Below are positions 672 to 57,384 of a DNA stretch of 64,000 bases, in pieces. The first letter of the stretch is position 1. The number at the start of each line of letters is the position of its first letter. Source of the DNA: Blautia glucerasea (GTDB lineage Bacteria > Bacillota > Clostridia > Lachnospirales > Lachnospiraceae); assembly GCF_013304385.1 (NCBI RefSeq), contig NZ_JAAITU010000001.1:124001-188000 (forward strand), given 5' to 3'. The notes below the pieces were generated by a model. It was not told the origin of the DNA and did no database searches. It saw only the letters and a list, made by a program, of their open reading frames with translations. A program made the position numbers and the translations under genes.

Positions 672-672
672 T

Positions 673-698
673 TCGCAAAAATTACATGGTGTTTAATG
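673..698 (+). promoter_or_regulatory. Phage promoter-like motif, copy 1
   Basis: TCGCAAAAATTACA followed by a TTTAATG box; the TCGC starts exactly 19 nt before the -10-like hexamer, as in the other copies. It lies between the stop of the first gene and the gene at 734. No ordinary -35 hexamer is seen at the usual distance. Promoter function is inferred. Confidence 0.6.
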
Positions 699-733
699 GG
701 AAATACTAAAACATTCCAAAGGAGGATGAAAAA

Positions 734-5124: not shown

Positions 5125-5146
5125 AAAGGAGAATCAAAATGTAATG
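5125..5146 (+). promoter_or_regulatory. Start-stop element before the polymerase gene
   Basis: AAAGGAG (5125-5131) is followed 7 nt later by ATG TAA (5139-5144), and the polymerase ATG overlaps the stop (ATGTAATG, start at 5144). The best-placed start for this ribosome site is therefore the one-codon frame; the polymerase start is 12 nt away. This could make translation depend on re-initiation. Confidence 0.5.
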
Positions 5147-8100
5147 ATTGATTTTATGAGGATCTCGACGCGGTCAAAGAAACAGGGCGTTGTCGAAATC
5201 TATCCAAATTTCATAATGACCAGATCATCAGATCTTATGATCAGAGGTGGTGATTTCTATGCGATTTGGATTGAAGAACGTGGGTTATGGTCAACCGACG
5301 AACAAGACGTTATCGACATGATTGACCGCGAGCTTCATGATTTTACAGATAACTATGCGAAAACACACATGGATACGTCATTTCATACTTTATATATGTG
5401 GGATGCCACGTCTGGTATGATTGACGATTGGCACAAATACTGTCAAAAGCAGTTGCGTGACAATTATCATCCACTTGATGAGGAATTGATATTTTCCAAT
5501 GTGGTGACAAAGAAGACAGATTACGCTAGCAAAAAACTGTCATATCCTTTGGAGAAAGGAGACATATCATCATACGATAAGCTTCTTTCAACTTTATATT
5601 CTCCAGAAGAGAGACATAAGATCGAATGGGCTATTGGGGCTGTTGTGACTGGCGATTCAAAAAACATTCAAAAGTTCATGGTCCTTTATGGTGCTGCTGG
5701 AACAGGCAAATCAACGGTCTTAAATATTATACAAGCATTATTTGAGGGTTACTATGCGACTTTCGATGCCAAAGGGCTGGGTCAAAGTAGTAACTCTTTT
5801 GCGTTGGAATCTTTTAAGACTAATCCACTTGTCGCCATTCAGCATGATGGAGATTTATCAAGGATTGATGATAATACAAGATTAAACAGCTTGGTTTCTC
5901 ACGAGCTTATGACAGTAAATGAGAAATTCAAATCGGCATATTCGACCAGATTTAATGCTTTCTTATTTGTCGGAACGAATAAACCAGTGAAGATTACGGA
6001 CGGTAAGTCGGGTCTGATACGAAGGCTTATTGATGTATCTCCATCCGGAAATAAACTCACTCAGCGAGAATACAAAAACGCTATCGAACACATAAAATTT
6101 GAGCTTGGAGCTATTGCGTATCATTGTAGGGAAGTATATTTAGACGATCCTGGTAGGTACGACAATTACGTTCCGGTTATCATGCTTGGAGCATCTAACG
6201 ATTTTTACAATTTTGTGATCGATAGTTTCAGCGTATTCAAGACAAATGATGGTACAAGTCTGAAGGCAGCCTGGGAAATGTACAAAGTTTATTGCGAAGA
6301 AGCCAAAGTCCTTTATCCATTTTCTCAACGCACATTTAAGGAAGAATTAAAAAACTACTTCCGTGAATTCGTTGAGAAGATAGATGGAGATTCGAGGATA
6401 AAGAATGAATACAAAGGTTTTCGCATTGATATTTTTGAAAAAGATATGAAAGGGATGAAAAACGAAAGTGATAAAACCAAGAATCAATGGCTTGTACTTG
6501 GAGAGTATGAATCGATATTCGACAAAGAGTCCGGGGAGTGTCCTGCACAATACGCAAAAGCAGACGAAACTCCGTCCAAACCCTGGGACAAAGTCACAAC
6601 CAAACTCAAAGACATTGATACATCGAAACTTCATTATGTCAAGGTTCCAGAGAATCATATAGTCATTGATTTTGACTTAAAAGATGAATCTGGTAACAAA
6701 TCACTTGAAAGAAATCTTGAGGCGGCGAGTAAATGGCCTCCAACTTATGCCGAGGTGAGCAAAGGTGGAGCCGGAATACATCTTCATTATTTATATTCTG
6801 GAGATTCATCAAAGCTTAGCAGAGTATATGAGGACGGTATTGAGATCAAAGTCTTTTCAGGCAAAAGCTCTCTGAGGAGAAAATTGACTTTGTGCACCGC
6901 CTTAGCAATCGCTACCCTCAGTTCTGGATTACCTTTGAAAGGAGAAAAAATGATAAGTTCGGATATTGTCCAAACCGAGAAGGGTATAAGGACAACGATC
7001 AAGAAATGTATCAGTAAGGATGTGCATCCTGGAACAAAACCCAACGTGGATTTCATATACAAGATATTGAATGATGCGTATGAATCCGGGATACACTATG
7101 ATGTTTCGGACATGAAGAATGCAATATACGCATTTGCGGCAAGCAGCACCAACCAGGCTGATTATTGTATCAAATTGGTTGGAAAAATGAAATTCAAATC
7201 AGAAGAGAATATATCATCAATAGAAAGTTCGGAGAGTCCTTTAGTCTTCTTTGACTGTGAGGTTTTTCCGAACTTATTTCTTGTAAACTGGAAAGTTCAA
7301 GGTGAAGGAAATCCTATTGTCAGGATGATTAATCCAAGACCACAGGACATTGAAGAGCTTATTCGCTTCCGATTAGTCGGATTCAACTGTAGACGATATG
7401 ATAACCATATGCTTTACGCATGTCTTATGGGATATAACAACGAACAGTTGTACAACCTATCTCAGAAGATTGTAAACACTAAAAAAGGAGACAGTCTCAA
7501 AGTTTTATTTGGAGAGGCTTACAATCTTTCTTATACGGATGTTTACGATTTTGCGTCTGCTGGAAACAAAAAGAGTTTGAAAAAACTTGAGATTGAAATG
7601 TCGTCAAAAGCGAATGATCCTACATCCAAGATGGATGACAGTCTCAGGAGAATGCTGAAATCCATAAAACACCATGAGCTTGGTCTGCCGTGGGATCAAC
7701 CAGTTCCAAAAGAATTGTGGCAGAAAGTAGCTGAGTATTGTGACGATGACGTTATCGCAACTGAGGCGGCGTTCAATTACCTTGAATCCGATTGGATAGC
7801 CAGACAGATTCTTGCCGACCTTGCGGGTTTAACAGTCAACGACACCACTAACACACTTACTACCAAATTTATATTTGGTAACAACAAAAAGCCACAAGAT
7901 CAGTTTCATTATCGGAATCTGGCTGCACCTGTCACTGAGATGGACGAGGATACGTACCAATTCTTATCTGAGGCATGTCCAGTAATGATGAGTCAGACCC
8001 ATGGTGATGCTGGTTCATATCTTCCATATTTTCCAGGATACAAATATGAAAATGGCATATCTATCTATCGAGGCGAAGAAGTTGGAGAGGGTGGTTATGT

Positions 8101-9337
8101 ATATGCCGAACCCGGTATGTATGGAAATGTGGCTCTTCTTGATGTTTCTTCAATGCACCCACACAGCACAATTGCAGAATGCTTGTTCGGGATAAAGTAC
8201 ACGAGAGCATATCGAGATATTGTTGAGGGACGAGTGTCAATCAAGCATGAGGCTTGGGACGAAGTAAATCATATGCTTGATGGTAAACTCACACCTTATA
8301 TTCAGAAAGTAATTGATGGAGAAATGAGTTCTAAGGATCTTGCAAATGCATTGAAAACAGCCATTAACTCAGTATATGGTCTTACGTCAGCTAACTTCGA
8401 TAATCCATTCCGTGATATTCGGAACAAGGATAATATCGTTGCGAAACGTGGTGCATTATTCATGATCGATCTGAAATATGAGGTACAGAAGAGAGGGTTT
8501 AAAGTTGCCCACATCAAGACAGACTCGATTAAAATTCCAGATGCGACGCCTGAGATTATCAAGTTCGTTATGGATTTTGGACAGAAGTATGGATATACAT
8601 TTGAACATGAGGCTACATACGATCGTATGTGCTTAGTGAACAACGCTGTTTATATTGCAAAGTATAAAGATCCAGCTGGATGTGAAGCACTGTATGGTTA
8701 TATTCCAGGTGATAACAAAAAGCATTCTGACGATCCATGGACAGCTACTGGTAAACAGTTTGCGGTTCCGTATGTATTCAAGACCCTTTTCAGCAGAGAG
8801 CCCGTTAGCATCAATGATATGAAAGAGACATTCTCTGTAAAATCCGCTTTATATTTAGACATGAATGAAACATTGCCAGATGTAAGCGCGTATGAAAAGG
8901 AAATGGATAAGTTAGAGAGCGATTACAAGAAAGGAAAGATATCCGATACGATATTTGAACCAAAAGCACTGGAATTGAGGAATAAGATTGTAGAGGGGCA
9001 TGATTACAAATTCGTAGGAAAGGTCGGTGAATTTTGCCCAATCAAACCTGGCAATGGTGGAGGTATTCTGGTTCGAGAGCAGAACGGAAAATATTATGCT
9101 GCCACTGGTACGACTGGATTCAGGTGGCTTGAGTCTGAAATCGCAGCAACGTCAGGAAACGAAGAGTTTATTGATCGGTCATATTACGACAAGCTTGTGG
9201 ACGATGCTGTTGATGCAATCTCTCAATATGGAGATTTTGAATGGTTTGTTTCAGATGACCCGTATGTATCACCACCACGGTTTGACGATTTTATGAATAT
9301 CCCGGAGGGGTACGATGAAGAAATGCCGTTTATGTAA
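5144..9337 (+). CDS. Fused SF3 helicase / primase-like / exonuclease / family B DNA polymerase
   Basis: 1397 aa, a replication enzyme with several domains. (1) SF3/D5-type helicase: Walker A GAAGTGKST (K189), a motif-C-like FLFVGTNKP and LIRRLI. (2) A region near residues 498-590 with D509xD511 (VIDFDLKD), KGGAGIHLHYLY (H546, H548) and EIKVFSGKSS, matching the three-motif layout of archaeo-eukaryotic primases and PrimPol. (3) DnaQ-like 3'-5' exonuclease: D704/E706 (FFDCEVFP), VGFNCRRYDNHM and an ExoIII-type YCDDD near 866-870. (4) Family B polymerase: motif A LLDVSSMHPH (D1000), motif B K1071xxxNSVYG and motif C HIKTDSIKI (D1127). Motif C has Lys where most relatives have the first Asp of DTD, but the second Asp is kept. 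Domain 2 is the least certain; the polymerase call is firm. Confidence 0.88.
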   Translation: MIDFMRISTRSKKQGVVEIYPNFIMTRSSDLMIRGGDFYAIWIEERGLWSTDEQDVIDMIDRELHDFTDNYAKTHMDTSFHTLYMWDATSGMIDDWHKYCQKQLRDNYHPLDEELIFSNVVTKKTDYASKKLSYPLEKGDISSYDKLLSTLYSPEERHKIEWAIGAVVTGDSKNIQKFMVLYGAAGTGKSTVLNIIQALFEGYYATFDAKGLGQSSNSFALESFKTNPLVAIQHDGDLSRIDDNTRLNSLVSHELMTVNEKFKSAYSTRFNAFLFVGTNKPVKITDGKSGLIRRLIDVSPSGNKLTQREYKNAIEHIKFELGAIAYHCREVYLDDPGRYDNYVPVIMLGASNDFYNFVIDSFSVFKTNDGTSLKAAWEMYKVYCEEAKVLYPFSQRTFKEELKNYFREFVEKIDGDSRIKNEYKGFRIDIFEKDMKGMKNESDKTKNQWLVLGEYESIFDKESGECPAQYAKADETPSKPWDKVTTKLKDIDTSKLHYVKVPENHIVIDFDLKDESGNKSLERNLEAASKWPPTYAEVSKGGAGIHLHYLYSGDSSKLSRVYEDGIEIKVFSGKSSLRRKLTLCTALAIATLSSGLPLKGEKMISSDIVQTEKGIRTTIKKCISKDVHPGTKPNVDFIYKILNDAYESGIHYDVSDMKNAIYAFAASSTNQADYCIKLVGKMKFKSEENISSIESSESPLVFFDCEVFPNLFLVNWKVQGEGNPIVRMINPRPQDIEELIRFRLVGFNCRRYDNHMLYACLMGYNNEQLYNLSQKIVNTKKGDSLKVLFGEAYNLSYTDVYDFASAGNKKSLKKLEIEMSSKANDPTSKMDDSLRRMLKSIKHHELGLPWDQPVPKELWQKVAEYCDDDVIATEAAFNYLESDWIARQILADLAGLTVNDTTNTLTTKFIFGNNKKPQDQFHYRNLAAPVTEMDEDTYQFLSEACPVMMSQTHGDAGSYLPYFPGYKYENGISIYRGEEVGEGGYVYAEPGMYGNVALLDVSSMHPHSTIAECLFGIKYTRAYRDIVEGRVSIKHEAWDEVNHMLDGKLTPYIQKVIDGEMSSKDLANALKTAINSVYGLTSANFDNPFRDIRNKDNIVAKRGALFMIDLKYEVQKRGFKVAHIKTDSIKIPDATPEIIKFVMDFGQKYGYTFEHEATYDRMCLVNNAVYIAKYKDPAGCEALYGYIPGDNKKHSDDPWTATGKQFAVPYVFKTLFSREPVSINDMKETFSVKSALYLDMNETLPDVSAYEKEMDKLESDYKKGKISDTIFEPKALELRNKIVEGHDYKFVGKVGEFCPIKPGNGGGILVREQNGKYYAATGTTGFRWLESEIAATSGNEEFIDRSYYDKLVDDAVDAISQYGDFEWFVSDDPYVSPPRFDDFMNIPEGYDEEMPFM

Positions 9338-9859: not shown

Positions 9860-10129
9860 ATGGTGACAATGACAATAGAACACGAATTAAGACCGTGCTA
9901 TGTGGTCGTTAAAAGAAATAAAAAAGAAAAAGGATTATTTCATGGATGGAATTTTGTAAGTAATGTTGTTGGACCTTCATTAATGATCGGTGGACATCCA
10001 GGCGGAGTCATTTCATATTGTACAGGACTTGTTGAACTTGAAGATGGTAGAGTTGTCGAGGTATTACCAACAAATTTAATTTTTGTAAAAGGGAGGTTTA
10101 ATGATTACATTTGGGATGATGAGGAGTAA
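9860..10129 (+). CDS. Conserved hypothetical phage protein, 89 aa
   Basis: Small, beta-rich protein starting 2 nt after the previous stop, with its ribosome site (GGAGG) inside that gene's end. It contains GGHPGGVISYCTGLVELEDG and a GRVVEVLPTNLIFV segment, which look like an SH3-like barrel. I recall relatives in Clostridia phages without known function. It probably belongs to the replication transcript. Confidence 0.65.
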   Translation: MVTMTIEHELRPCYVVVKRNKKEKGLFHGWNFVSNVVGPSLMIGGHPGGVISYCTGLVELEDGRVVEVLPTNLIFVKGRFNDYIWDDEE

Positions 10130-10155
10130 TCGCATAAATTACAGCTCCTTTAATG
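10130..10155 (+). promoter_or_regulatory. Phage promoter-like motif, copy 2
   Basis: TCGCATAAATTACA and TTTAATG with the fixed 19-nt offset. CTCCTTTAA (10145-10153), which overlaps the -10, is a perfect 9-bp complement of TTAAAGGAG (10178-10186), the ribosome site of the next gene. Confidence 0.6.
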
Positions 10156-10193
10156 GTACAAACCAATTATTTATATTTTAAAGGAGGAATAAG

Positions 10194-12562: not shown

Positions 12563-12706
12563 ATGAGTGACGGAACAAAAATTGTTATAGCCGGAATCAT
12601 GGCTTATACGATATATAGAGTCGCGGGAAAGTGTACGGACGCTAGGATTGCAATTGCTGCAATGAAATGCGGAGTCACTATGAAATTGGAAGAAAAGGAG
12701 AAATGA
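12563..12706 (+). CDS. Small phage protein, 47 aa
   Basis: Read directly: MSDGTKIVIAGIMAYTIYRV..., ending in MKLEEKEK. The N-terminal half is hydrophobic (IVIAGIMAYTIY) and may be a membrane helix. The ATG follows AGAGGAGTGATATTT. The stop overlaps a possible start of the next gene. Confidence 0.5.
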   Translation: MSDGTKIVIAGIMAYTIYRVAGKCTDARIAIAAMKCGVTMKLEEKEK

Positions 12707-12708
12707 TT

Positions 12709-13191
12709 ATGAAAGTTTATTGTTATTCATGTGCAAATAAAGACTGTAAGGAAACGTGCAGAACTTGTGTTAATGGTATCATTCACATGACAACAGACGG
12801 AGCTGAATATAGTTTGCCTTCGAATTACTCATGCGTTTATAAGCCTGTGCCAAAAGAATTACGGCAGAAGGTAGCGGAGTATTGTGACAACGATGTCCTG
12901 GCAACTAAAGTTGCGTTCAACAAATTATTCGGAACGGGCCTTACGGTATCACCACACCAGAAGGTCATGTCCAAAATCAAAAACGTTATCTTCAATGATC
13001 CGGCTACAATTGTATTTTGGAATGATGGCACTAAGACCGTTGTAAAATGCGGTAAGGATGACACATTTGATCCGGAGAAAGGTCTGGCTATGGCGATTTC
13101 TAAATACTTCTTTGATAATGCCGGATATTTCAATGATGTATTTAAGAAATGGATTCCAAAGAAAGGAGAAAGCGATGGAAAAGACCAGTGA
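12709..13191 (+). CDS. Phage protein carrying a copy of the polymerase ExoIII segment
   Basis: 160 aa; the ATG at 12709 is 8 nt from AAGGAG. Three parts are visible. A Cys-rich N-terminus (YCYSCANKDCKETCRTC) could bind a metal. A middle (PVPKELRQKVAEYCDNDVLA, then TKVAFN) is nearly identical to residues around the ExoIII motif of the DNA polymerase (PVPKELWQKVAEYCDDDVIA). The C-terminus (IVFWNDGTKTVVKCG...GLAMAISKYFF) is a common small phage protein of unknown function. The gene looks like a fusion in which a polymerase fragment joined two other pieces. Confidence 0.65.
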   Translation: MKVYCYSCANKDCKETCRTCVNGIIHMTTDGAEYSLPSNYSCVYKPVPKELRQKVAEYCDNDVLATKVAFNKLFGTGLTVSPHQKVMSKIKNVIFNDPATIVFWNDGTKTVVKCGKDDTFDPEKGLAMAISKYFFDNAGYFNDVFKKWIPKKGESDGKDQ

Positions 13192-14582: not shown

Positions 14583-14659
14583 TGACAACACCTATGCTTG
14601 TGATTCTGGGATGGGCTTTAGGAATGATTGCTATGATATATTTTAAATCGCATAAATAA
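14573..14659 (+). CDS. 28-aa membrane micro-protein
   Basis: Read directly: MDMMTTPMLVILGWALGMIA then MIYFKSHK. It is one hydrophobic helix with a basic end. It overlaps the helicase end by 10 nt and has a plausible ribosome site (AAAGGAAG). Its end overlaps promoter-like motif copy 3. Confidence 0.45.
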   Translation: MDMMTTPMLVILGWALGMIAMIYFKSHK

Positions 14660-14673
14660 CATCCACTATTATG
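14648..14673 (+). promoter_or_regulatory. Phage promoter-like motif, copy 3
   Basis: TCGCATAAATAACA with TATTATG at the fixed 19-nt offset. A perfect TTATGA-GAAAA-TCATAA hairpin (about 14669-14685) begins in the -10 and ends just before GGAGG of the next gene. Confidence 0.6.
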
Positions 14674-14697
14674 AGAAAATCATAAGGAGGATGAAAC

Positions 14698-16417: not shown

Positions 16418-16423
16418 TTATAC

Positions 16424-16449
16424 TCGCTATTTTCACAAACCCTTTAATG
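16424..16449 (+). promoter_or_regulatory. Phage promoter-like motif, copy 4
   Basis: TCGCTATTTTCACA with TTTAATG at the fixed offset. It lies 41 nt before the ATG of the next gene. Confidence 0.55.
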
Positions 16450-16489
16450 AAACCTAATGACAAAGTCCAAAAATGAAAGGAGAATAATT

Positions 16490-17928: not shown

Positions 17929-18039
17929 AGTTCTTTCTGCCAATGAAACACTTTGCCTAGTTATCGCTAGGGGTCACATTTTGTGGCTAACGGGGAACCA
18001 CCCATTGGAATCCCGTGGGAAACATTTCAAAAATATATT

Positions 18040-18065
18040 TAGCGAAAAAAGCATCTCCTATAATG
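18040..18065 (+). promoter_or_regulatory. Phage promoter-like motif, copy 5 (inside the intron)
   Basis: TAGCGAAAAAAGCA with TATAATG at the fixed offset. CTCCT (18055-18059) can pair with AGGAG (18068-18072), the ribosome site of the gene at 18081. Confidence 0.6.
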
Positions 18066-18080
18066 AAAGGAGTGATTTAT

Positions 18081-18300: not shown

Positions 18301-18442
18301 ATATTTTTGAAATGAACCTGTAGAGGCTATCCCCTATGCCTTCTGGGCGGGGGAGTAGGGCTACTATTGATACGTAGCTGGGTTTTAGGAAACGAAGCCC
18401 ATGAAAATCGAAATGGTGTCCTATTGTTTTATATTTGTGTGT

Positions 18443-18468
18443 TAGCGAAAAATGCATATCCTTTAATG
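18443..18468 (+). promoter_or_regulatory. Phage promoter-like motif, copy 6 (inside the intron)
   Basis: TAGCGAAAAATGCA with TTTAATG at the fixed offset. ATCCTTT-AATG-AAAGGAT (18458-18475) is a perfect 7-bp hairpin that would hide the ribosome site of the gene at 18486. Confidence 0.6.
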
Positions 18469-18485
18469 AAAGGATGGTGATATTT

Positions 18486-19571: not shown

Positions 19572-19584
19572 GATATTTAATTAA

Positions 19585-19610
19585 TCGCGAAATAAACTTG
19601 GCCTATAATG
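19585..19610 (+). promoter_or_regulatory. Phage promoter-like motif, copy 8
   Basis: TCGCGAAATAAACT with TATAATG at the fixed 19-nt offset, 76 nt before the next ATG. Confidence 0.6.
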
Positions 19611-19685
19611 AAAGAGTAGTGTATAATGTTTATATATTAGCTCTTATCATAAAAGAAAGGGCTTGCTCGAAAAGGAGGCAGGTAA

Positions 19686-21641: not shown

Positions 21642-21908
21642 ATGCAGAAAAAGAGAGGTAGACCGAAGAAGATTGATAGTAAAACTGATGGATATCGGCT
21701 GAGAATGAGTAAAGAAGAACGCTATTTGCTTGAGAAAATATGCCAAAATGAGGGCTTATCGAAAGCAGATGTGTTCCGAGCACTCATAAAAATTGGGTAC
21801 GATATGTCAAAAAATGGGTCATTTATTGGATATCCAGAAAATCGAAATGACGATTATGGAATTATTGGATATCCAGAAAATAGGGACGATTTTGAAGATG
21901 ACCTTTAA
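21642..21908 (+). CDS. Ribbon-helix-helix DNA-binding protein
   Basis: 88 aa; the ATG at 21642 overlaps the previous stop. YRLRMSKEERYLLEKICQNE followed by GLSKADVFRALIKIGYDM is a CopG/Arc-type ribbon-helix-helix. The basic N-terminus (MQKKRGRPKK) is AT-hook-like. The acidic tail contains IGYPENR twice because the DNA there carries two copies of the TTGGATATCCA palindrome; two more lie just after the gene. The protein may bind these sites itself, as in autorepression or partition. Confidence 0.7.
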   Translation: MQKKRGRPKKIDSKTDGYRLRMSKEERYLLEKICQNEGLSKADVFRALIKIGYDMSKNGSFIGYPENRNDDYGIIGYPENRDDFEDDL

Positions 21909-21953
21909 TTATTGGATATCCAAAAATAAAAGTGTGAATTATTGGATATCCAA
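21826..21953 (+). repeat. Four copies of a TTGGATATCCA palindrome
   Basis: TTGGATATCCAG at 21826-21837 and 21865-21876 inside the gene end, then the full palindrome TTGGATATCCAA at 21912-21923 and 21942-21953. The flanks are also shared (TATTGGATATCC, then A-rich). Candidate operator, centromere or origin iterons. Confidence 0.85.
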
Positions 21954-21963
21954 AAAATCGGGT

Positions 21964-22131: not shown

Positions 22132-22380
22132 ATGCAAATGAAAGATGTTATAAGCGAAGTTGAGTTTATTGATATTTTTGCGGATAATTTAAGAGACATT
22201 ATGAAAGATGCAAAAATTGGTCAAAGAGAGTTGGCAGAAGAAGCACATCTTACAAGAGAAACAATTAACCGATATTTAAACAAGAAAACGATGCCGTCAT
22301 TACGAGCACTGATAAATATCTGTTATGTTCTCAATTGCGATTTGTACGATATTTTACCAGCTTGCAACATGATTAAGTAG
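22132..22380 (+). CDS. Xre/Cro-type helix-turn-helix regulator
   Basis: 82 aa. RDIMKDAKIGQRELAEEAHL, followed by TRETINRYLNKKTMPS and LRALINICYVLNC, is a complete Xre DNA-binding domain. The ATG follows AACGGAGATAAA. It lacks a repressor C-terminal domain, so it is Cro-sized; it probably binds the inverted TGTACAC sites just upstream. A terminator follows. No larger repressor is seen in the window; one may lie to the left. Confidence 0.85.
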   Translation: MQMKDVISEVEFIDIFADNLRDIMKDAKIGQRELAEEAHLTRETINRYLNKKTMPSLRALINICYVLNCDLYDILPACNMIK

Positions 22381-22834: not shown

Positions 22835-22861
22835 TATTTTTAGAATTCCCCAAAAGATTAC

Positions 22862-22887
22862 GGGCGAAAATTACATAGACTGTTATA
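22862..22887 (+). promoter_or_regulatory. Phage promoter-like motif, copy 10
   Basis: GGGCGAAAATTACA with TGTTATA at the fixed offset, close to copy 1 in sequence. It lies upstream of a terminator and the tRNA. Confidence 0.45.
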
Positions 22888-22890
22888 GGG

Positions 22891-22978: not shown

Positions 22979-23052
22979 GGATCTTTAGCTCAGTTGGTTA
23001 GAGCGACCGGCTCATAACCGGTAGGTCGTTGGATCGTACCCAACAGGATCCA
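22979..23052 (+). tRNA. tRNA with CAU anticodon (Met, or Ile2 if modified)
   Basis: 74 nt without an encoded CCA. Acceptor GGATCTT pairs with AGGATCC (one T-G pair), D-arm GCTC/GAGC, anticodon stem ACCGG/CCGGT with loop CTCATAA, T-stem GTTGG/CCAAC. The T loop is ATCGTAC rather than the standard TTCRANY: bases 54 and 58 are A and T instead of T and A. Otherwise a normal cloverleaf. Phage-borne; it stands between a terminator and the nuclease genes. Confidence 0.88.
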
Positions 23053-23073: not shown

Positions 23074-23364
23074 ATGAAAGAGAACAAGTTTCAGTCTGAT
23101 CTGAAAAAAGAAATCAAGAAGAGGTTTCCTGGATGCATAGTTACCAAACTTGACTCCTCTGATATTCAGGGGATTCCAGATCTACTGGTATTATACAAAA
23201 ACAAATGGGCAGCACTCGAAGTTAAAAAAGATGCAAGTGCCAGTAAAAGACCAAACCAGGAATATTATGTTGCACGCATGAATGAAATGTCATTTTCAAA
23301 ATTTATATTTCCAGAGAATAAGGAGGATGTGTTAAATGAACTTCAACAAGCATTCGATACTTGA
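23074..23364 (+). CDS. VRR-NUC-type nuclease
   Basis: 96 aa, the size of standalone phage VRR-NUC proteins. GCIVTKLDSSDIQGIPDLLV followed by WAALEVKKDA gives the PD-(D/E)XK core (D in PDLL, ExK in EVKK). These small enzymes are structure-specific nucleases that act on branched DNA or Holliday junctions. The ATG follows ACAGGAGGATGTT. It overlaps the next gene by 29 nt, so the two nucleases are probably made together. Confidence 0.85.
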   Translation: MKENKFQSDLKKEIKKRFPGCIVTKLDSSDIQGIPDLLVLYKNKWAALEVKKDASASKRPNQEYYVARMNEMSFSKFIFPENKEDVLNELQQAFDT

Positions 23365-23890
23365 AGGAACTCACGCCCCATTCGGAGCGAGTCAGTCAAG
23401 TTGGCTGAGGTATTCAGATGACAAGGCTTTGGATGTATACAAGAATCTGCAGGCAAAGATGATGGGAACGAGACTTCATGCTTGGGCTAAAGAAACTATT
23501 GATTTAGGTATAAAGCAACCTAGATCAAAGAAAACGTTGTATGCATATGTGAATGATGCAATCGGGTTCAAGATGGACACCGAGGTTGTTTTATATTATT
23601 CAGACAACTTCTTCGGAACTGCTGATAGTATTTCATTCCGAGATAACTTTTTAAGAATACATGATTTGAAAACTGGGAAGACGCCAGTCCACATGGAGCA
23701 GCTTGAAATATATGCTGCTCTTTTTTGTTTGGAGTATAAAGTTCGTCCAGGCGATATTGATATGGAATTGAGAATTTATCAAAACGACGAAGTGATTGTT
23801 TTTAATCCTACTGCCGAAGACATTTTACCGATCATGGATAAGATTGTTCATTTAGATAAACTGTTGAAATCGTTGAATGAGGAGGTATAA
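23336..23890 (+). CDS. PD-(D/E)XK (RecB/Cas4-like) nuclease
   Basis: 184 aa. Conserved pieces in order: MGTRLHAWAKE (the His-containing start of the fold), NFFGTADSISFRDN (the catalytic Asp), LRIHDLKTGKTPVHMEQLEI (DLKTG, the (D/E)xK part, then Q..E). This matches PDDEXK_1-like exonucleases of the RecB/Cas4 type in phages, which work with recombination or replication. The start ATG follows AAGGAGGATGTGTTA. It directly precedes the RNA polymerase-like gene. Confidence 0.8.
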   Translation: MNFNKHSILEGTHAPFGASQSSWLRYSDDKALDVYKNLQAKMMGTRLHAWAKETIDLGIKQPRSKKTLYAYVNDAIGFKMDTEVVLYYSDNFFGTADSISFRDNFLRIHDLKTGKTPVHMEQLEIYAALFCLEYKVRPGDIDMELRIYQNDEVIVFNPTAEDILPIMDKIVHLDKLLKSLNEEV

Positions 23891-23892: not shown

Positions 23893-26805
23893 ATGAGTTC
23901 AATAATCGAAGAAATGGAATCGTACTTAGGCTGTGGCGAAGACGAATACTTAGCTCATTATGGAATGCCTCGTCGAAGTGGGAGATATCCATGGGGTTCT
24001 GGAAAAGAACCGTTTCAATCGAGTCTTGATTTTCTTGGTCGTGTAGAGGAAATGCGTAAGAAAGGTTTCAAATACACTGATGAAGATGGAAAGACATGGA
24101 CAGGAGATAATGCTATTGCAAAATCTTTAGGATACAATTCTACAGATTTTAGAACAGTATATGCAATCGCCAAAGATGAGCGTCGATCATACGATGTGGC
24201 AAGAGCTCAGTCTTTAAAGAAAGACGGATTGAATACCAGCCAGATTGGTAGAAAGATGGGGATCAACGAGTCGACTGTTAGATCTTATCTGAATCCAAAT
24301 TCAGAATCTAGGATGAAGCAGGCCAGAGGTACCGCTAATTATTTAAAAGAGCAGGTCGACAAAAAGAAAATGGTCGACGTTGGTGTTGGTGTCGAGAGAG
24401 AGTTAAACATTTCAAAAGAAAAACTTGATCAGGCGTTATTTATATTGCAGGCAGAAGGTGGATATAAAGTTTACGGTGGTAGATTTTCTCAGGCGACGAA
24501 CAAGGGGCAAATGACAACGCAGCGTGTATTATGCGTTCCCGGCACTCAGCATAATGAGATATATGACCTCGATAGAGTCAAAACGCTAAAAGATTATATT
24601 TCGAGAGATGATGGAGCAACTTTCGAGAAAAAATTTCATTATCCAGAAAGTTTGGATTCCAAAAGACTTCAGATTCGATATGCAGAGGATGGCGGTATAA
24701 ACAAGGATGGTCTTGTTGAATTGAGGAGAAATGTTCCAGATCTTTCTCTTGGAGAATCGTCCTATTCTCAGGTTCGTATCATGGTTGATGGAAAGCGATA
24801 CATCAAAGGTATGGCTGTTTATTCGGATAATATGCCTGATGGTGTCGATGTTATATTTAACACCAACAAAAGCAAAGATGTTTCTAAGATGGATGTTCTC
24901 AAGAAAATTAAAGACGATCCAAACAATCCATTTGGCTCAGCCATTAAAGATTCTGAGCAGGGTGGACAATATTGGTATAACGACCCTAAGACTGGTCAGA
25001 AAAAGCTTGGTTTAATAAACAAACGTGCCGATGAGGGTGATTGGTCTGATTGGAAAGATGCTCTTCCGTCACAGTTCTTATCAAAGCAATCCGTATCTAT
25101 GGCCCAAAAGCAACTTAATATCGCAAAAGCGGATAAGCAGTTGGAATTTGATGAGATCATGGCTTTAACCAACCCCACTGTTAAGAAATACTACCTGAAC
25201 AAGTTCGCTGAGAGTTGTGATTCGGCGGCTGTACATTTACAGGCAGCTGCGTTACCTGGGCAGAAATACCACGTTATCATACCAATGAACTCGTTGAGCG
25301 ATAAGGAAGTGTATGCACCGAACTATGAGAACGGAACAAAGCTGGCGTTAATCAGGTATCCACATGGCGGAACTTTTGAGATACCAATACTTACAGTTAA
25401 TAATAAAAACCGAGAAGGACATGAAATCTTGGGCAATATTCCAAGAGATGCTGTCGGTATAAATCATAAAGTTGCCGAAAGATTATCGGGTGCCGATTTC
25501 GATGGAGACACTGTAATGTGTATTCCTACCCACGATAAAGAAGGTAAAGTCAAGATCACTTCTACCCCACCACTTAAAGGTCTGGAGGGATTTGATCCCA
25601 AGATGGAATATGGTGGAACAGTCAAGATAGGACGAGACGGCAAAGAACATTACTATCGTAACGGAAGAGAGTATCAGTTAATGAAAAAGACTGATACGGA
25701 AATGGGTAAAATTTCAAATCTGATTACAGATATGACGCTTCTTGGAGCTGACGAGAATGAATTAGCTCGTGCTGTTAGGCACAGTATGGTGGTTATTGAT
25801 GCTGAAAAGCATAAATTGGATTACAAAGACAGTGAAAAGGTAAACAACATTGCTGCTCTGAAAGTTAAGTATCAGGGTAAAAAAACAGGCGGAGCATCGA
25901 CCATTATTTCCAGAGCAAAGGGGCAATACGAGGTAGATAAACGACAGGGATCCCCACGGATAAATCTAAAAGGGCGCCCAGATTACGATCCGTCTCGACC
26001 AGAGGGAGCGTTACTGTGGAAGACCGCCGATAAGTTGGAATACGTAAAGAAAATACGCAATCCAGAAACTGGTAAATGGGAAGAACAAACAAAGCTTAAC
26101 AAAAAAACTGGCGAATTGGAACCAGTGATTGGATATAGAACGCAGAAGAGTACAAAAATGGCCGAAACTGACGACGCCTATAAACTTGTATCCAAACAAA
26201 GACATCCCATGGAACTGGTATATGCAGACTATGCAAACTCAATGAAAGCTATGGCTAACCGGGCTAGAGTCGAATTATCCAAAGCAGGAAAGATCGCATA
26301 TGACAAGAATGCAAAACAGATCTACAAAGATGAAGTAGATAGCCTGGAGAAAAAGCTTAATAAAGCTGAGATTAATGCGGTTAGAGAGAGAGCTGCACAG
26401 AGAATGGCTAATGTATCAACGAAGAAAAAGATCGAAGCAGCAGAGGCTAACGGTGAAACTCTTAAAAAGAAAGATGTTAAGAAAGCTAGTCAGCAGGCTC
26501 TAACCAGAGCACGTGAGGAAGTTGGGTCTTCATCAAGAAGAGAAAGAAACATTCCTATTACTGACAAAGAATGGGCTGCCATCCAGGCCGGAGCAATCAG
26601 TGAGGCCAAGCTTATTAGGATACTGAACAACAGTGATCCAGACATTCTTAGAGAGAAAGCAATGCCGAAGACTACGAAAGAACTTTCGAGTTCAAAGCAG
26701 AGCAGAATCAAAGCAATGTCTAGCACATACACAATGCAACAGATTGCAGACAAACTTGGCGTATCAACATCTACAGTTTCTAAGTATTTGAAAGGAGGAA
26801 AATGA
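23893..26805 (+). CDS. Single-chain RNA polymerase-like protein (double-psi barrel, DFDGD)
   Basis: 970 aa. Residues 534-539 are ADFDGD, the Mg-binding motif of the beta-prime-type double-psi beta-barrel of RNA polymerases. Upstream, LIRYPHGGTFEIPIL has the place of the conserved R-x-P segment. Downstream, EMGKISNLITDMTLLGADEN and LARAVRHSMVVIDAEKH closely resemble the G-x-IxN...H-S-x-x-VD-x-x-K helices of the QDE-1/YonO single-chain polymerases. The N-terminus has a tag-like DEYLAHYGMPRRSGRYPWGS. Helix-turn-helix segments are at about 112-137 (TSQIGRKMGINESTVRSYL) and at the C-terminus (MQQIADKLGVSTSTVSKYL). It may transcribe phage genes. Activity is not proven by sequence alone. Confidence 0.78.
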   Translation: MSSIIEEMESYLGCGEDEYLAHYGMPRRSGRYPWGSGKEPFQSSLDFLGRVEEMRKKGFKYTDEDGKTWTGDNAIAKSLGYNSTDFRTVYAIAKDERRSYDVARAQSLKKDGLNTSQIGRKMGINESTVRSYLNPNSESRMKQARGTANYLKEQVDKKKMVDVGVGVERELNISKEKLDQALFILQAEGGYKVYGGRFSQATNKGQMTTQRVLCVPGTQHNEIYDLDRVKTLKDYISRDDGATFEKKFHYPESLDSKRLQIRYAEDGGINKDGLVELRRNVPDLSLGESSYSQVRIMVDGKRYIKGMAVYSDNMPDGVDVIFNTNKSKDVSKMDVLKKIKDDPNNPFGSAIKDSEQGGQYWYNDPKTGQKKLGLINKRADEGDWSDWKDALPSQFLSKQSVSMAQKQLNIAKADKQLEFDEIMALTNPTVKKYYLNKFAESCDSAAVHLQAAALPGQKYHVIIPMNSLSDKEVYAPNYENGTKLALIRYPHGGTFEIPILTVNNKNREGHEILGNIPRDAVGINHKVAERLSGADFDGDTVMCIPTHDKEGKVKITSTPPLKGLEGFDPKMEYGGTVKIGRDGKEHYYRNGREYQLMKKTDTEMGKISNLITDMTLLGADENELARAVRHSMVVIDAEKHKLDYKDSEKVNNIAALKVKYQGKKTGGASTIISRAKGQYEVDKRQGSPRINLKGRPDYDPSRPEGALLWKTADKLEYVKKIRNPETGKWEEQTKLNKKTGELEPVIGYRTQKSTKMAETDDAYKLVSKQRHPMELVYADYANSMKAMANRARVELSKAGKIAYDKNAKQIYKDEVDSLEKKLNKAEINAVRERAAQRMANVSTKKKIEAAEANGETLKKKDVKKASQQALTRAREEVGSSSRRERNIPITDKEWAAIQAGAISEAKLIRILNNSDPDILREKAMPKTTKELSSSKQSRIKAMSSTYTMQQIADKLGVSTSTVSKYLKGGK

Positions 26806-26807
26806 TT

Positions 26808-27077
26808 ATGGCATCAGACTGCAGACTAACAACTATCGACAATCCATATGATCCTTTTGATCAGTTTCCTCAATGGTTTCTATTTGATGTAGAAAACGGA
26901 TACAACACGTGTTCCAGACTTGACAGAGTATCTCACTATACTGACGACATGAGCGAGAAAGAAGTTGACGAAGAACATGAAAGAGCTGTTGATGCAATGA
27001 TTCGATATGATTTTCTCAATATTTATAAAAAAGTATACAGAAAAGATAAAGAATCAAAAGAAAGAGCCCACTCGTAG
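26808..27077 (+). CDS. Hypothetical phage protein, 89 aa
   Basis: Starts at 26808 (10 nt from AAAGGAGG) or 26802 (4 nt); I prefer the former. The sequence MASDCRLTTIDNPYDPFDQF followed by a WFLFDVENGYNTCSRL region is one I know from Clostridia phages, always without function. Acidic and helical toward the end. It sits directly behind the polymerase-like gene and before the cos-like region. Confidence 0.7.
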   Translation: MASDCRLTTIDNPYDPFDQFPQWFLFDVENGYNTCSRLDRVSHYTDDMSEKEVDEEHERAVDAMIRYDFLNIYKKVYRKDKESKERAHS

Positions 27078-27388
27078 GGTATAGAAATGTTTAAAACATA
27101 GGGGGGGGTCGTGAAAAATACACCCCCTCCTTGCATCGCGGCGGTCTTTATATTTTCCCCGGAGGGAATTTTCTGAAAAACATTTCGACTTGTATTTTCC
27201 CCCAACGTATTCTTTCCACACTTACACGAGTTCACGAGACTGGATGGCGAAATGAAATCCTCCTTTTCGCGTGCATATATAGAATGTAAGTCACTTCATT
27301 TTACTGCCCTCCTGTCAGAATATCCGGTTTCGTGAATTCTTTTAAGTGTGGAAACTACGTCTAAACATAATCAAAAGGAGATGAGAAC
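27078..27388. other. Structured non-coding region, candidate cos/terminase site
   Basis: 311 bp without a gene. It holds GGGGGGGG and ACACCCCC tracts (27103-27127) and a long imperfect inverted repeat: 27213-27245 against 27322-27354 (28 of 33 match; the outer 12, TTTCCACACTTA, are perfect). A GCGAAA...TTTCGC pair and a small palindrome (AATGTAAGTCACTTCATT) lie in between. Directly before the terminase gene, this is where cos sites of such phages lie. Confidence 0.55.
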
Positions 27389-28496: not shown

Positions 28497-29417
28497 ATGG
28501 TAAACAGTTTGTATCTAAGCCATCATGGTGTAAAAGGTCAAAAATGGGGAATTCGACGATTCCAGTATAAAGACGGTAGCTTAACGCCTGCTGGACAAAG
28601 AAGAGCGGCGAAGATGCGTACAGCATACACTCAATTGACCGGGAAGAAATTACGAAGTCATCCGGAAAGTTTAAAGAAAAGCAGCGACAAAAGTAAGTCA
28701 GGCGGAAAAACAAGTGACGCCGATGATCAGATCACGAAACTGAAGAAACAGAAAGAACTCCTTACAGCAAAGAAAGACGTTCTGGAGTTACAGAATAAAA
28801 TTAGCGAACTTACCCCAAAGAAAGTTTCAGCCGGAAAGAAATTTATTGAGAAGTTCGGCCCGACCATAGCCAAAAATGTATGGGAGGGAGCTCTCAAGAA
28901 TAATGTCAACAAATGGATTGAGAATAAATTGGGGTTGAAAGTTCCTGAGTCGGAATCAAATAAACTTGCCAATAAAGCAAAGGATATGCAGAATCGTTAT
29001 AATTCACTAAAGTATGAAAACCTGATCAAAGAAGAATTAAATAAACGAAAGAAAAATCAGGGAAACACCAGTGACAAGACGAACAGTGACAAGACGAACG
29101 GTGAAAAATCTCCCAATAGCGGATCAAACAAATCCAGCAAACAAAATGAACAGAAATCGGAATCGAGAGGCGGTCAATCGTCTAAGACATCTGACGGCAC
29201 TAAGTCTTCAAAAACGGAGGAGTCAAAGACTGAAAGATACACCGGAACGGTTGAAGGTAAAGGTACGTCTCATGTCGATCCACGTAAATATTATACGGTG
29301 GATGCCGATTATCGTGATGTGAAATCTTCCAATACTAGCAGCGGCGAGAGATTCATAAGCGGATTACTCGAAAGCGGAGCCGGTATACTTAGACTGGAAG
29401 ATAAAAGGATGGGTTAA
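28497..29417 (+). CDS. Tag-motif late protein with Lys/Ser-rich linker
   Basis: 306 aa; ATG 28497 after AAAGGTGGTGAGAAT. The N-terminus YLSHHGVKGQKWGIRRFQYK is the HG(V/I)xGxKWGxRR motif widespread at the N-termini of Firmicutes phage late proteins. A helical part with coiled-coil character follows, then a long low-complexity Ser/Lys/Thr/Asn region (about 190-260) and an ordered C-terminus (YYTVDADYRDV). Probably a virion-internal or scaffold-like protein; the role of the tag is unknown. Confidence 0.7.
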   Translation: MVNSLYLSHHGVKGQKWGIRRFQYKDGSLTPAGQRRAAKMRTAYTQLTGKKLRSHPESLKKSSDKSKSGGKTSDADDQITKLKKQKELLTAKKDVLELQNKISELTPKKVSAGKKFIEKFGPTIAKNVWEGALKNNVNKWIENKLGLKVPESESNKLANKAKDMQNRYNSLKYENLIKEELNKRKKNQGNTSDKTNSDKTNGEKSPNSGSNKSSKQNEQKSESRGGQSSKTSDGTKSSKTEESKTERYTGTVEGKGTSHVDPRKYYTVDADYRDVKSSNTSSGERFISGLLESGAGILRLEDKRMG

Positions 29418-31201: not shown

Positions 31202-31708
31202 ATGAATCAAAATGAACTCATGCATTATGGCGTTCTAGGTATGAAATGGGGTGTACATAGAGCAAGTAAAGCCGCGCTAAAAGCCAAAACACCCGAACGA
31301 TATGCTTCAGCGATAAGATCGTTGGATAACCATAGAACAAAAAGTGTTAAAAAACTTAACAGACTTGAGAAAAAAGCTCCAAAGTTGGATCGAAAATACA
31401 ACAAAGCTATCGAAAAGACAGATGTAAAAAGTGCACGGTTAAATGCAAAGTCTGCCAAATATGAGCGAAAAGCCAATAAGAGGTTTTTCACAACAGATAG
31501 TGCTATAGCACGTAATTCGTCAAAAGCTGCTAAGTATTACAGTAAAGCGGCATCATTAGAATCGAAGAGTGCCAAAGCTAAATCTAAATACGCCAAGAAT
31601 AAAAGATTGCGTGAAGTATATAGCCAAGGTATTAGTGACATAGATACTGCCAAATTAAATGCCGGAAAAAGATATGTTGAATTATTTGCGAAAGAGGCGA
31701 TTGCTTAA
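31202..31708 (+). CDS. Second tag-motif late protein
   Basis: 168 aa. ELMHYGVLGMKWGVHRASKA at the N-terminus is again the HGxxGxKWGxRR-type tag. The rest is a lysine/alanine-rich helix with repeats of the form K-x-x-x-A/S-K (KSARLNAKSAKYERKANKRF), strongly basic. It may bind the packaged DNA inside the head. It lies between terminase and portal, with a start after AAGGTGAACGAAC. Confidence 0.65.
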   Translation: MNQNELMHYGVLGMKWGVHRASKAALKAKTPERYASAIRSLDNHRTKSVKKLNRLEKKAPKLDRKYNKAIEKTDVKSARLNAKSAKYERKANKRFFTTDSAIARNSSKAAKYYSKAASLESKSAKAKSKYAKNKRLREVYSQGISDIDTAKLNAGKRYVELFAKEAIA

Positions 31709-42500: not shown

Positions 42501-45500
42501 CGTCAGCATCATTGAGCCTTAAAGACAAAGGAATAAATATAGAAGGTCTTAAAGCTGGATTAGTCGGAATTGGTATGGCGCTGCTTTTGGTGGCTGCAAC
42601 GGTTAAGCTAATGGGCTCTATGGATCCTGAAGAAGCGATACGTGGATTCATCGGACTTGCCGGTATTATTGCAGCAATTTCAGCAGTGTTTATAGCGTAC
42701 GGCTTAGCTGTGCGTGGGAAAGCCGCAAAGAATATTGACAAAGCCGGAAAAATGATCAAGAAGATGGCATGGACAATGTTACTTATCATTGGCGTGATAA
42801 AGTTGGTGGGCTTTCTTAAAGCTGAAGAAATCATTAAAGGTGCTGCTTTCATGGCCGGCTTCATCGTTTTCGTCGGTCTTTTAAGCCTTGTTACGAGAAA
42901 GTCCGGGAAACATATCGATAAGTTAGGTGGCATGTTGGTCAAAATGGTTATCGCAATGGCCTTATTAGTTGGTGTTGTAAAACTAATTGGCAAGCTAAGC
43001 TTAGGCGAGATGGGGAAAGGTGCACTTTTCGCAGCTGGTTTTCTCCTGTTTGTCGTAGCCTTGAAGAAAGCTGTGACTACCACGAATAGTGGAGAAATGG
43101 CCAAGCTTGGCGGCTTACTTCTCTCCATGTCCGTAGCTATGGCATTGATGGTTGGCGTTGTAGCACTCGTCAATCTCATGTCTGTAGGCGAGCTTATCAA
43201 GGGCGCAGCCGCGATTGTCGTGTTCGGTGCACTGATGATCGCAATGGTCAAATCGGTAAAAGATATAGGTCCGGACGCTCCGAAGATGGCGGCAACACTG
43301 ATCGCAATGTCTACTGCAATCGGAATTATGGCAGGTATAGCCGTACTCCTCAGCATGGTAAAAACAGAGGATTTAATTAAGGGTATCGCTGCCGTTGGTG
43401 CGTTGAGTGCTATTCTTGCGCTGATGATAGTTGCCACGAGGGGAGCGCAGAAATGCGTTGGTAATATCGTAGCGATGACTGTCGCTATCGGCGTCATGGT
43501 CGGTGCTCTGGCAATATTGTCGCTTATTGAGCCAACTCGTCTGGCTGGAGCAGTAGCAGCCCTTGGAATCATGATGGGTATGTTTGCTCTCATGACAAAA
43601 GCATCCGGTTCTACGAATGGCTCCATTAAATCGGTTGCGAGTATGCTTCTTGTGGTAGTTGGACTCGCAGCTGTCATTTATGCGCTTGATAAGCTGGATT
43701 GTAAAACTACTTTAAAGACTGTTGTTTCATTATCAGTCTTAATGCTGGCGTTGGCCAAAGTTACAAAGATTGTAGCAAAAGCCGGAAACGTAAGCAAATC
43801 AGCGATGGTGTCAATGGCCGTCATGGCAGGCATCATGCTTGGCGTTGGAGTTGTTCTTGGGATACTCAATAAGTTTGACCTCAACACTTCTCTTGAAACT
43901 GCGATTGCGTTATCTACAGTGATGATTGCTCTGTCTACAGCAGCACTTATCGCAAGTAAGATAGGGGCAATTGGATCTGCTTCGGTGACTGGTGCGGGGA
44001 AGATGATTCTCATGATTGCGGGAATAGGTACGCTTCTCACAGCTGTCGCTGGATTGATTGGACTTATTCCAGGAGCGGAGGAGTTCTTGGATAAGGGAGT
44101 CACAATTTTAGCAAAAATCGGAACCGGCCTTGGCGAGTTCTTCGGCAGTATCATCAGTGGTTTTGCAACCGGTCTTACGAACGATCTTCCGAAGTTAAGT
44201 GAAAATCTTACTAAGTTCGTCAACGGTTTCAAAGACATAGACAGCTCCGCTTTAGCTGGAGTGAAGACTTTAGCAGACGTTATTCTTGAGGTCGCTGGTG
44301 CTGAGATTTTAGGAGGCATCTCAAGATTCCTTAATTTTGGCATGAGTCCAATGGAGTCTTTTGCTAATGAGATTGGCATATTTGTGGATGCTATGAGTGA
44401 AGTTTCCGATAAACTTAGCGGAAATAATATTAATGTTGCTGCTTTAACCGGCATTGCAATGATTGGTCAAATATTCGCTAGTTTGCAGAAAAATATCGAT
44501 CCGAGCGGTGGGCTGAAACAGCTAATCACTGGGTCAAGAGATTTGGGCGACTTCGGCGAACAGATTAAGAAATACGCGAGACAGATCAATATTGCAGCAA
44601 AAGCTGTATCTAAAATTTCTGCTGACGGACTTACTAACCTTGGTGCCATTGCTACCATAGGTACTGCATTTGCGGATTTACAGGGTAGTATACAGTACAC
44701 CGATGGGTTAGTTACCAAATTAGCGGAAAAAGATCTTGGTTCTTTTGGTGTGCAGATAGCAAAATATGCGTTGAATATGACTATCGCAGCCGCAGCTACA
44801 TCTATTATTTCTGCTGACGGACTTACTAACCTTGAGGCCATTGCTACTATAGGTACTGCGTTTTCGGATTTGCAAGGGAGTATACAGTACACGGATGGAT
44901 TAGTTACAAAATTAGCGGAAAAAGATCTTGGTTCTTTTGGCGGACAAATTTCTAAATATGCTTTTAATATGGCAGCAGCTGCTTTGGGTGTTGCTCTCAT
45001 ACCTGACAACGGATTAAATAATTTAACAACCATCGCCGATCTTGGTACAGCATTCTCGGATTTGCAAGGGAGTATACAGTACACGGATGGGTTAGTTACT
45101 GCACTTAAAGAGAAGAAGGATCTTGGTTCGTTCGGTAAACAGGTTGCTGAATATGCTAAAAGCATAAAAGACGCTTCGGATGAACTTGGTAAAGAAAAGA
45201 TCAACGAAGATGCTATACAGTCAGCAGCTAACGCGGGAACATTTCTCTCAGACCTTCAAAAAGCTCTTCCAAAGGAAGACTGGTTCGATGGATCTATTGA
45301 TCTGGGTACGTTTGGTAATCGTATAGAATCATTCGGTCAAGCCATCGGCACTCTCGATGATTTTTCAAAATCTGCCAACATGGAGAATATGCAAAAATCC
45401 GTGGAACTTGGCGAAAAGATGGCTAAGCTAGCACAGAGTTTAACTGGTATCACCGTAGCTGAAACGGATCAGTGGCAGTTTATCAGGGATTTTGGGCAGG

Positions 45501-57225: not shown

Positions 57226-57384
57226 TTCAAAACGATCAAATAATTGTACATATTGCATGAAAATATTGAGTTTTATGAAGAAAAAAGACCAAATGGACAT
57301 TTTCGTGTATTATGTAACTTAGAGTATTTTGGAATAACTCTGTGAATGGAATGAAAACAGGCAACTCAGAAGGGAGAGATCTGA

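Follow-up and report, generated by a model that had tools for sequence, protein, structure and literature searches.

A prophage in Blautia glucerasea carries a gene for a predicted single-chain, two-barrel RNA polymerase, and a bipartite promoter-like motif precedes both its early genes and the polymerase operon. The gene lies in a stretch of 64,000 nucleotides (nt) of contig NZ_JAAITU010000001.1 (positions 124,001 to 188,000 of the forward strand; hereafter the window). With moderate confidence, we favor the reading that the protein is a DNA-dependent two-barrel polymerase that reads the motif as an early promoter through its helix-turn-helix ends, and that it is probably docked in the virion by an N-terminal tag. 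The gene, its family, the two-barrel fold and the distributions of the motif and the tag were computed; enzymatic activity, use of DNA as template, recognition of the motif, packaging and read-through are inferred. The polymerase family is already named and widespread, and the enzyme itself is not new. The motif, the tag, and the ‘structural protein’ status of two tagged proteins of Lactococcus phage 1706 seem to be undescribed; a text search confined to open-access papers returned none with the tag strings, the Pfam family DUF7211 or six motif strings.

The polymerase gene and its predicted fold

The open reading frame (ORF; 23893-26805, + strand) is uninterrupted over 970 codons. The profile of PHROG 4291, a family that carries the description ‘RNA-dependent RNA polymerase’, matches its product at 1201 bits, with protein residues 16-968 on profile positions 8-907 of 909. 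A tblastn search of 50,697 phage records found relatives in 251, and in 249 the match covered at least 80% of the query; among the rows listed, they are mostly labeled helix-turn-helix protein, RNA-dependent RNA polymerase or hypothetical protein. The 3.99-Mb host genome holds a single copy.

A first-pass annotation, made from the sequence letters, had called this frame a polymerase on the strength of ADFDGD at residues 534-539, and an alignment of 95 homologues drawn from the window and the fetched loci bears this out: A534, D535, D537, G538 and D539 are invariant, and F536 is nearly so. The G-K-I-x-N...HSMVVIDAEK region that it had also singled out is similarly constrained, most positions of M604-G-K-I-S-N609 and H630-S-M-V-V-I-D-A-E-K639 being invariant or at least 90% conserved, and helix-turn-helix matches occur near both ends of the protein, as it had proposed. 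K305 and G306 are invariant as well, and this region may resemble the HGNKG segment of RpoB, with the basic residues of the first barrel. Among prophage ORFs of at least 90 codons, DxDGD appears once, in the polymerase.

An AlphaFold model built from the 95-homologue alignment has a mean predicted local distance difference test score (pLDDT) of 87 and a predicted template modeling score of 0.79. Foldseek ranked QDE-1 first (E 2.4e-8) and plant RDR2 next. In VIA-align, QDE-1 was the best match in the Protein Data Bank (Z 17.3, 17% identity), with 355 residues aligned within residues 247-796 of the one chain, as expected if the predicted fold holds two barrels. Two Thermus phage entries followed, ‘Phage P32 gp64’ at Z 11.7 and ‘P74 gp62’ at Z 11.6, and the large RNA polymerase II subunit scored near Z 10.9 over about residues 448-667. 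Within this last stretch, the DxDGD loop of the model is placed between helix 525-530 and strand 540-546, consistent with a barrel loop. The model supports a single-chain double-psi-barrel RNA polymerase, presumably an active one.

The first-pass assignment to a YonO/QDE-1 type holds for its QDE-1 half, by fold, and is not supported for its YonO half, by sequence. Profile-profile comparison with YonO by hhalign was not significant (probability 1.4%, E 0.038, 204 columns), and the YonO score was surpassed by 4 of 40 column shuffles, though these span at most 44 columns versus 215. These comparisons do not support close sequence kinship with YonO; the DxDGD, GxISNxIT and IDxxK segments do align in the same order over the 204 columns. 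Searched by sequence against solved structures, the protein found no polymerase and two helix-turn-helix matches, and the profile found no polymerase among 14 matches, mostly helix-turn-helix or designed proteins. A single-sequence comparison with gp64 of Thermus phage P23-45 spanned 30 columns only, and crAss gp66 was not among the 50 fold matches listed, which excludes nothing.

A bipartite promoter-like motif ahead of early genes

A repeat search of the prophage revealed related copies of 28-33 nt ahead of early genes. The consensus from 278 distinct sites in family loci, TTCGCRAAAAAAACAT-N2-CCTWTWATGRRR, is a bipartite 30-nt motif of fixed spacing. All eight sites in the window lie on the + strand ahead of the polymerase, with scores from 16.4 to 31.1, and the left flank holds nine further sites of the same strand and placement. 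With the final 278-site matrix (threshold 15 in loci, 8 in the window), the late region at 27.4-57.4 kb contains no motif, its best score being -2.3. The first-pass annotation proposed that the polymerase, if active, would serve the late genes; the motif instead marks early genes and the polymerase operon, which argues against that role. An initial matrix of eight sites, used at a cut-off of 11.5, gave 446 + and 29 - hits in 178 family loci, 17 + and 9 - hits in YonO loci, and two additional weak hits in the window (51380, + strand, and 42829, - strand) that vanished with the 278-site matrix. Just 26% of the 278 sites have A at the second position of their -10-like element, and no conserved TTGACA-like block lies upstream, so the motif looks unlike a host sigma-70 promoter. 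Sigma-70-like sites around the polymerase gene were not clearly enriched (24 found, 19.4 expected, standard deviation 4.0).

The motif recurs at the same place in relatives. In 170 family loci, some of whose contigs are present twice (e.g. L003/L027), 356 hits above 15 lie upstream of the polymerase (1,105,695 bases) versus 20 downstream (793,539 bases), a comparison that is not independent because the matrix was built from the same loci. Their minus strand yielded no hit above 15, and neither did 78 YonO-phage loci (778,540 bases). Among the 147 loci with at least 1.5 kb of upstream sequence, 137 have the motif no more than 1.5 kb ahead of the polymerase, the median distance being 941 nt. Fifteen of the 20 downstream hits lie 0.2-1.6 kb ahead of a gene with the tag described below, which says little because tagged genes are frequent there.

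We also scanned four phage records outside the matrix for hits above 8: Arthrobacter phage Mudcat, Gordonia phage Kenosha and Streptomyces phage Rima from base 25,001 on, and the first 12.6 kb of Faecalibacterium phage Oengus. Mudcat gave 7 hits, Kenosha 10, Rima 13 and Oengus 12, all on the + strand; the first three phages are independent of the matrix, and Oengus is so to a lesser degree, as the training set contained a Faecalibacterium prophage (L182). All 42 hits are intergenic, in records where intergenic DNA makes up 6-16%, and 29 sit 20-45 nt upstream of an annotated start. No motif above 10 occurs in the first 25 kb, late genes included, of phages Mudcat, Rima, P078 and Kenosha (L186-L189). 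A de novo search of intergenic DNA from the Gordonia, Streptomyces, Arthrobacter and Oengus phages recovered the motif, in Rima its 3' part only. Log-likelihoods were 109-231 versus 67-79 for shuffles (4 per genome), with upstream regions of hand-picked genes as input and 25 restarts for shuffles versus 60 for real runs. In phage 1706, a variant, TTTACA-N5-CTATAGTR, occupies 10 of the 12 top-scoring positions, and 9 of these 10 are intergenic; the de novo consensus of this phage was blurred by ribosome-binding-site-like sequence. Judged by shared layout and place, the variant may be the same motif.

The motif and the polymerase also keep company in wider samples. A blastn search with one actinophage site hit 182 of the 50,697 phage records (Arthrobacter 74, Gordonia 55, Streptomyces 43, Rhodococcus 4, Curtobacterium 4, Microbacterium 1 and ‘Caudovirus’ 1). 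These genus names are all found among the polymerase records; that the 182 carry the polymerase is deduced from genus names and counts, with 60 of the 182 listed. A degenerate motif pattern occurred in 5 of 5 polymerase-positive genomes versus 2 of 145 others in a host-family sample, and in 6 of 6 versus 1 of 289 in an order sample. Since the samples share the window's own genome (G000) and 10 negatives, the combined count is 10 of 10 distinct positives versus 3 of 424 distinct negatives. A backward control pattern had no hit in the genome samples. Positive here means a polymerase match above 1000 bits, and six family-sample and five order-sample genomes with matches of 17-27 bits were counted as negative. 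The order-sample exception, G158, has on its contig the early end of such a phage, with five motif sites and early genes of the lineage (54% identity to the window ORF at 1181).

Two polymerase-negative genomes each hold a single unexplained strong site, at G102:C1:2208892 (score 34.1) and G091:C53:10187 (35.3, at a contig end). Separately, G184:C2:461861 and G235:C1:66559 show 25-27-bit matches to the middle of PHROG 4291 within open frames of 1169 and 877 codons; these are possibly other single-chain polymerases.

The N-terminal motif, the virion and the prophage layout

Near its N-terminus, the polymerase carries HYGMPRRSGRYPWGSG (HYG...SGRYPWGSG, residues 22-37), with 11 of 16 positions at least 90% conserved in the 95 homologues. 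Residues 15-32 and 34-37 of the model have pLDDT below 50 and are predicted to be disordered; conservation together with disorder is what a short docking motif would be expected to show. A strict pattern of this tag occurs in 149 of 170 polymerase ORFs and a variant in 16 of the other 21, and several of the last five start within the gene or are broken. Outside the polymerase, the polymerase-type tag was found twice in L020 and once in L149, two more hits looking like broken polymerase pieces.

A related motif, HYGVKGMKWG (Pfam DUF7211, PF23847), opens other proteins encoded beside terminase and portal genes, two of them in the window. The 2.66 Mb of fetched DNA contain 182 copies, every one on the + strand, whereas a single residue-shuffled control contained none. 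Of the 70 loci that extend at least 8 kb past the polymerase, 66 have the motif in that downstream part, and 156 of 171 copies fall within the first 60 residues of an open frame. When 77 tagged proteins were scanned at E 0.001, DUF7211 matched 70; there were also matches to papain-fold glutamine deamidase (six), to 2'-5' RNA ligase (two), and to GNAT acetyltransferases, a cell-wall repeat and a portal family (one each). Such mixed domains make the tagged proteins look like virion cargo. Among the 150 genomes of the family sample, the 5 with DUF7211 are also the 5 with the full-length polymerase (by simple counting, a chance of 1 in about 6e8). In the order sample of 295 genomes, each occurs in 6, and 5 genomes have both; G379 has the polymerase without the tag, and G196 the tag without the polymerase. 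We rejected the idea that the tag is common to all phages, as DUF7211 was found in exactly the 5 of 150 host-family genomes that bear the polymerase. By eye, four tagged proteins (L145:9265-10788, L129:14594-15934, L024:19798-20919 and L189:10210-11406) have a common uncharacterized C-terminal region around KGYDAI.D.ND...PLI.F, and L174:18157-19833 appears to be a portal protein with a DUF7211-type tag after the portal domain.

The original deposit of phage 1706 bears on whether the polymerase is a virion protein. Eleven of its 76 ORFs (6, 7, 11, 12, 13, 17, 20, 21, 62, 71 and 75) are labeled ‘structural protein’ or ‘major structural protein’ without ‘putative’. One of them, orf75, is the polymerase orthologue, and another, orf7, bears two tags; the tag patterns find these two ORFs and no others in this phage (chance of both being in the structural set 0.019, counting pairs). 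Because orf62, orf71 and orf75 lie outside the structural module, the label suggests an experimental basis. The present RefSeq name of orf75 is RNA-dependent RNA polymerase, and the ReqiPoco6 orthologue is annotated as similar to the 1706 structural protein.

Table 1. Coordinates of the polymerase gene, its motifs and nearby features in the window
Feature	Position	Strand	Basis
Promoter-like motif, early region	672..701	+	Matrix match
Promoter-like motif, early region	10129..10158	+	Matrix match
Promoter-like motif, early region	14647..14676	+	Matrix match
Promoter-like motif, early region	16423..16452	+	Matrix match
Promoter-like motif, early region	18039..18068	+	Matrix match
Promoter-like motif, early region	18442..18471	+	Matrix match
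Promoter-like motif, early region	19584..19613	+	Matrix match
Promoter-like motif before tRNA-Met, endonuclease, exonuclease and polymerase	22861..22890	+	Score 16.4, weakest of eight
tRNA-Met, between promoter-like motif and endonuclease gene	22979..23052	+	tRNA scan
Endonuclease gene (PHROG 93), upstream of polymerase	23074..23364	+	PHROG match
Exonuclease gene (PHROG 3953), upstream of polymerase	23336..23890	+	PHROG match
Single-chain two-barrel RNA polymerase gene, 970 residues (PHROG 4291)	23893..26805	+	Profile match and AlphaFold fold
N-terminal motif HYGMPRRSGRYPWGSG, residues 22-37; candidate virion-docking tag	23956..24003	+	Conservation and pLDDT
N-terminal helix-turn-helix, residues 111-133	24223..24291	+	Helix-turn-helix match
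ADFDGD, catalytic-type, residues 534-539	25492..25509	+	Sequence and homologue alignment
C-terminal helix-turn-helix, residues 946-967	26728..26793	+	Helix-turn-helix match
Small gene (PHROG 4303) overlapping polymerase stop	26802..27077	+	PHROG match
Gap after PHROG 4303 gene, with G-run and C-run; probable cos region	27078..27388	+	Analogy with ReqiPoco6
Gene before large terminase, N-terminal HHGVKGQKWGIRR tag	28497..29417	+	DUF7211-like, 22.8 bits, below 27-bit cut-off
Gene between terminase and portal, N-terminal HYGVLGMKWGVHR tag	31202..31708	+	DUF7211, 41.3 bits

The prophage is of the 1706/Oengus/Rima type and roughly 64 kb long (Table 1). A 15-base repeat, found at window position 57300, just past the integrase gene, and again 6.7 kb left of position 1 (L273:13342), suggests this length and is a candidate attachment site. 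Downstream of the polymerase lie the late genes (connector-like structural protein, large terminase, portal, protease-capsid protein and tail), in the position that the first-pass annotation had given them. Of the 137 loci that continue for at least 350 nt past the polymerase, 135 have a PHROG 4303 homologue there, and the product of this small gene may be a polymerase partner. The gap that follows is probably cos by analogy, because the annotated cos overhang of ReqiPoco6 follows the same two genes.

Several further features were noted. Three polymerase phages have tRNA-Met genes (window 22979-23052, L002:5015-5090 and L021:5968-6046); a tRNA was found in 3 of 29 other loci scanned, two of them tRNA-Met. 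Four copies of a 20-nt sequence near AATTATTGGATATCCARAAA, with palindromic core TTGGATATCCAA, are spaced 30-47 nt apart at 21809-21960, upstream of a repressor-like gene at 22132, and form a possible operator or iteron array. A 192-nt tandem repeat (three copies and a partial fourth) lies inside the tape measure gene at 44530-45157. The ORF at 12667-13191 holds a fragment resembling the DNA polymerase at 5144-9337, and 82 nt of this ORF match 7695-7776 at 78% identity.

Weighing the readings and known systems

The course of infection that we propose is as follows. The polymerase would enter the cell with the DNA, docked in the virion by its disordered N-terminal motif. Its helix-turn-helix ends would recognize the bipartite motif, so that the enzyme could read the promoters of the early gene clusters, giving early and middle transcription, and, from the motif before its own operon, amplify itself. 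The late operon may be reached by read-through from this last promoter. Of conserved phage factors, the one that would fit the motif is the polymerase, with its helix-turn-helix at each end. If its own operon, too, depends on a phage-type promoter, the first enzyme would have to arrive from outside in the virion, or else stem from a host-read start. A wider proposal, which we regard as possible and somewhat short of probable, is that a widespread siphophage lineage of Clostridia, Lactococcus and Actinobacteria packages this one-chain two-barrel polymerase by a short tag shared with other injected proteins, among them papain-fold deamidases and 2H phosphoesterases, and starts infection from its own promoters, with recognition residing within the polymerase chain.

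Several observations count against a virion-borne early polymerase. Other loci have 20 motif hits on the downstream side of the polymerase; in actinophages the motif includes TATAAT, a possible target of a host sigma factor; the early half of Lactococcus phage CHPC971 has no hit above 10 and fits the matrix poorly; and the 1706 variant scores from 11.1 down to -6.1, with a single hit above 8 and the others at 6.6 to -6.1. Comparison of the polymerase N-terminus with DUF7211 gave no hit for the window protein or L111 and 12.7 bits for L163, the cut-off being 27, and the ‘structural protein’ status in phage 1706 comes from the deposit label. Induction of a prophage begins without a virion polymerase and needs a host-read start at least once, so a purely virion-borne start would not be the whole story. 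Descent of one phage lineage could by itself explain the association of motif, tag and polymerase.

Induction is also an argument for a polymerase that is made early by the host RNA polymerase, reads the motif promoters and is never packaged, its N-terminal motif serving some other contact. Such an enzyme would suit an operon that adjoins early and middle genes and carries a motif promoter; we nonetheless consider it unlikely, as 1706 orf75 was deposited as a structural protein and so was orf7, which has the same type of tag. A YonO-like late polymerase that transcribes the adjacent late operon would have a precedent in SPbeta, whose late genes YonO transcribes as a single operon (PMC5467207), and read-through could serve the adjoining late genes from the motif that 137 of 147 loci have some 941 nt ahead of the polymerase. 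Set against this are the best score of -2.3 in the late region of the window, the lack of sites above 10 where Mudcat, Rima, P078 and Kenosha have their late genes (first 25 kb), and the placement of the motif at early genes; we judge a late role improbable.

Whether the motif concerns the polymerase at all may be questioned, for it could be a host sigma-A promoter or the operator of a phage regulator. This would agree with the TATAAT of actinophage sites, with co-occurrence explicable by lineage sharing, and with the poor matrix fit of Lactococcus phages that do have a family polymerase. The 278 sites, however, have a weak -10 and no -35, and the motif is nearly exclusive to polymerase-positive genomes. 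Its layout is the same in hosts of two phyla; that it occurs in phages of both Clostridia and Actinobacteria, and as a variant in phage 1706, virulent according to the title of its paper, argues against a host factor or a lysogeny operator. We give a host promoter or operator a low probability. It is very improbable that the protein is a degenerate polymerase serving solely as a DNA-binding regulator: many deposits do name a helix-turn-helix alone, but D535, D537, D539, K305, G306 and most of MGKISN and HSMVVIDAEK are conserved in 95 sequences.

A sharp candidate promoter common to phages of two bacterial phyla is here paired with a single-chain enzyme of another kind than YonO, which makes promoter recognition by simple two-barrel polymerases testable with one protein and one template. 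The tag would offer a route for loading the polymerase and other proteins into a siphophage particle, and it suggests a possible role for DUF7211, a family whose function Pfam gives as unknown.

Within PHROG 4291, the named members Lactococcus 1706 orf75, Oengus gp55, Mudcat gp94, Rima gp86 and Kenosha gp89 are full-length kin of the window protein. The last four have the same neighbors (endonuclease, exonuclease and a PHROG 4303-like gene), and the members share the same type of N-terminal motif where seen and the same promoter-like motif, as a variant in 1706. Unlike our description, they are annotated as RNA-dependent RNA polymerase, helix-turn-helix or structural protein, and the annotation tables considered mention neither motif nor tag. 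QDE-1, the RNA interference polymerase of Neurospora and Thielavia, has a similar two-barrel core but is eukaryotic and 17% identical in the alignment. The protein gp66 of crAss-like phage phi14:2 is annotated, on the basis of tandem mass spectrometry (MS/MS) proteomics, as a catalytic RNA polymerase subunit, but by coordinates it has about 2,180 residues and lies beside other large MS/MS-annotated proteins. YonO of SPbeta is likewise a single chain of similar size, with DxDGD, GxISNxIT and IDxxK in the same order; its sequence kinship is not significant, and it differs in its late-gene role and the lack of motif hits in its phages. The YonO paper has the late genes transcribed from one start and leaves the promoter undetermined (PMC5467207). 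Thermus phage P23-45 encodes single-chain two-barrel enzymes with their own promoters, the virion polymerase gp96 and the non-virion gp64; the former is fused to the tape measure protein and the second enzyme uses other promoters (PMC10770324). A survey of two-barrel proteins in the supplement, cited in the Discussion of that paper, may list the PHROG 4291 family. The window enzyme is a free protein with a short motif, and the PHROG 4291 family is set apart from P23-45 and YonO by one free-standing enzyme, a tag-like motif and candidate early promoters.

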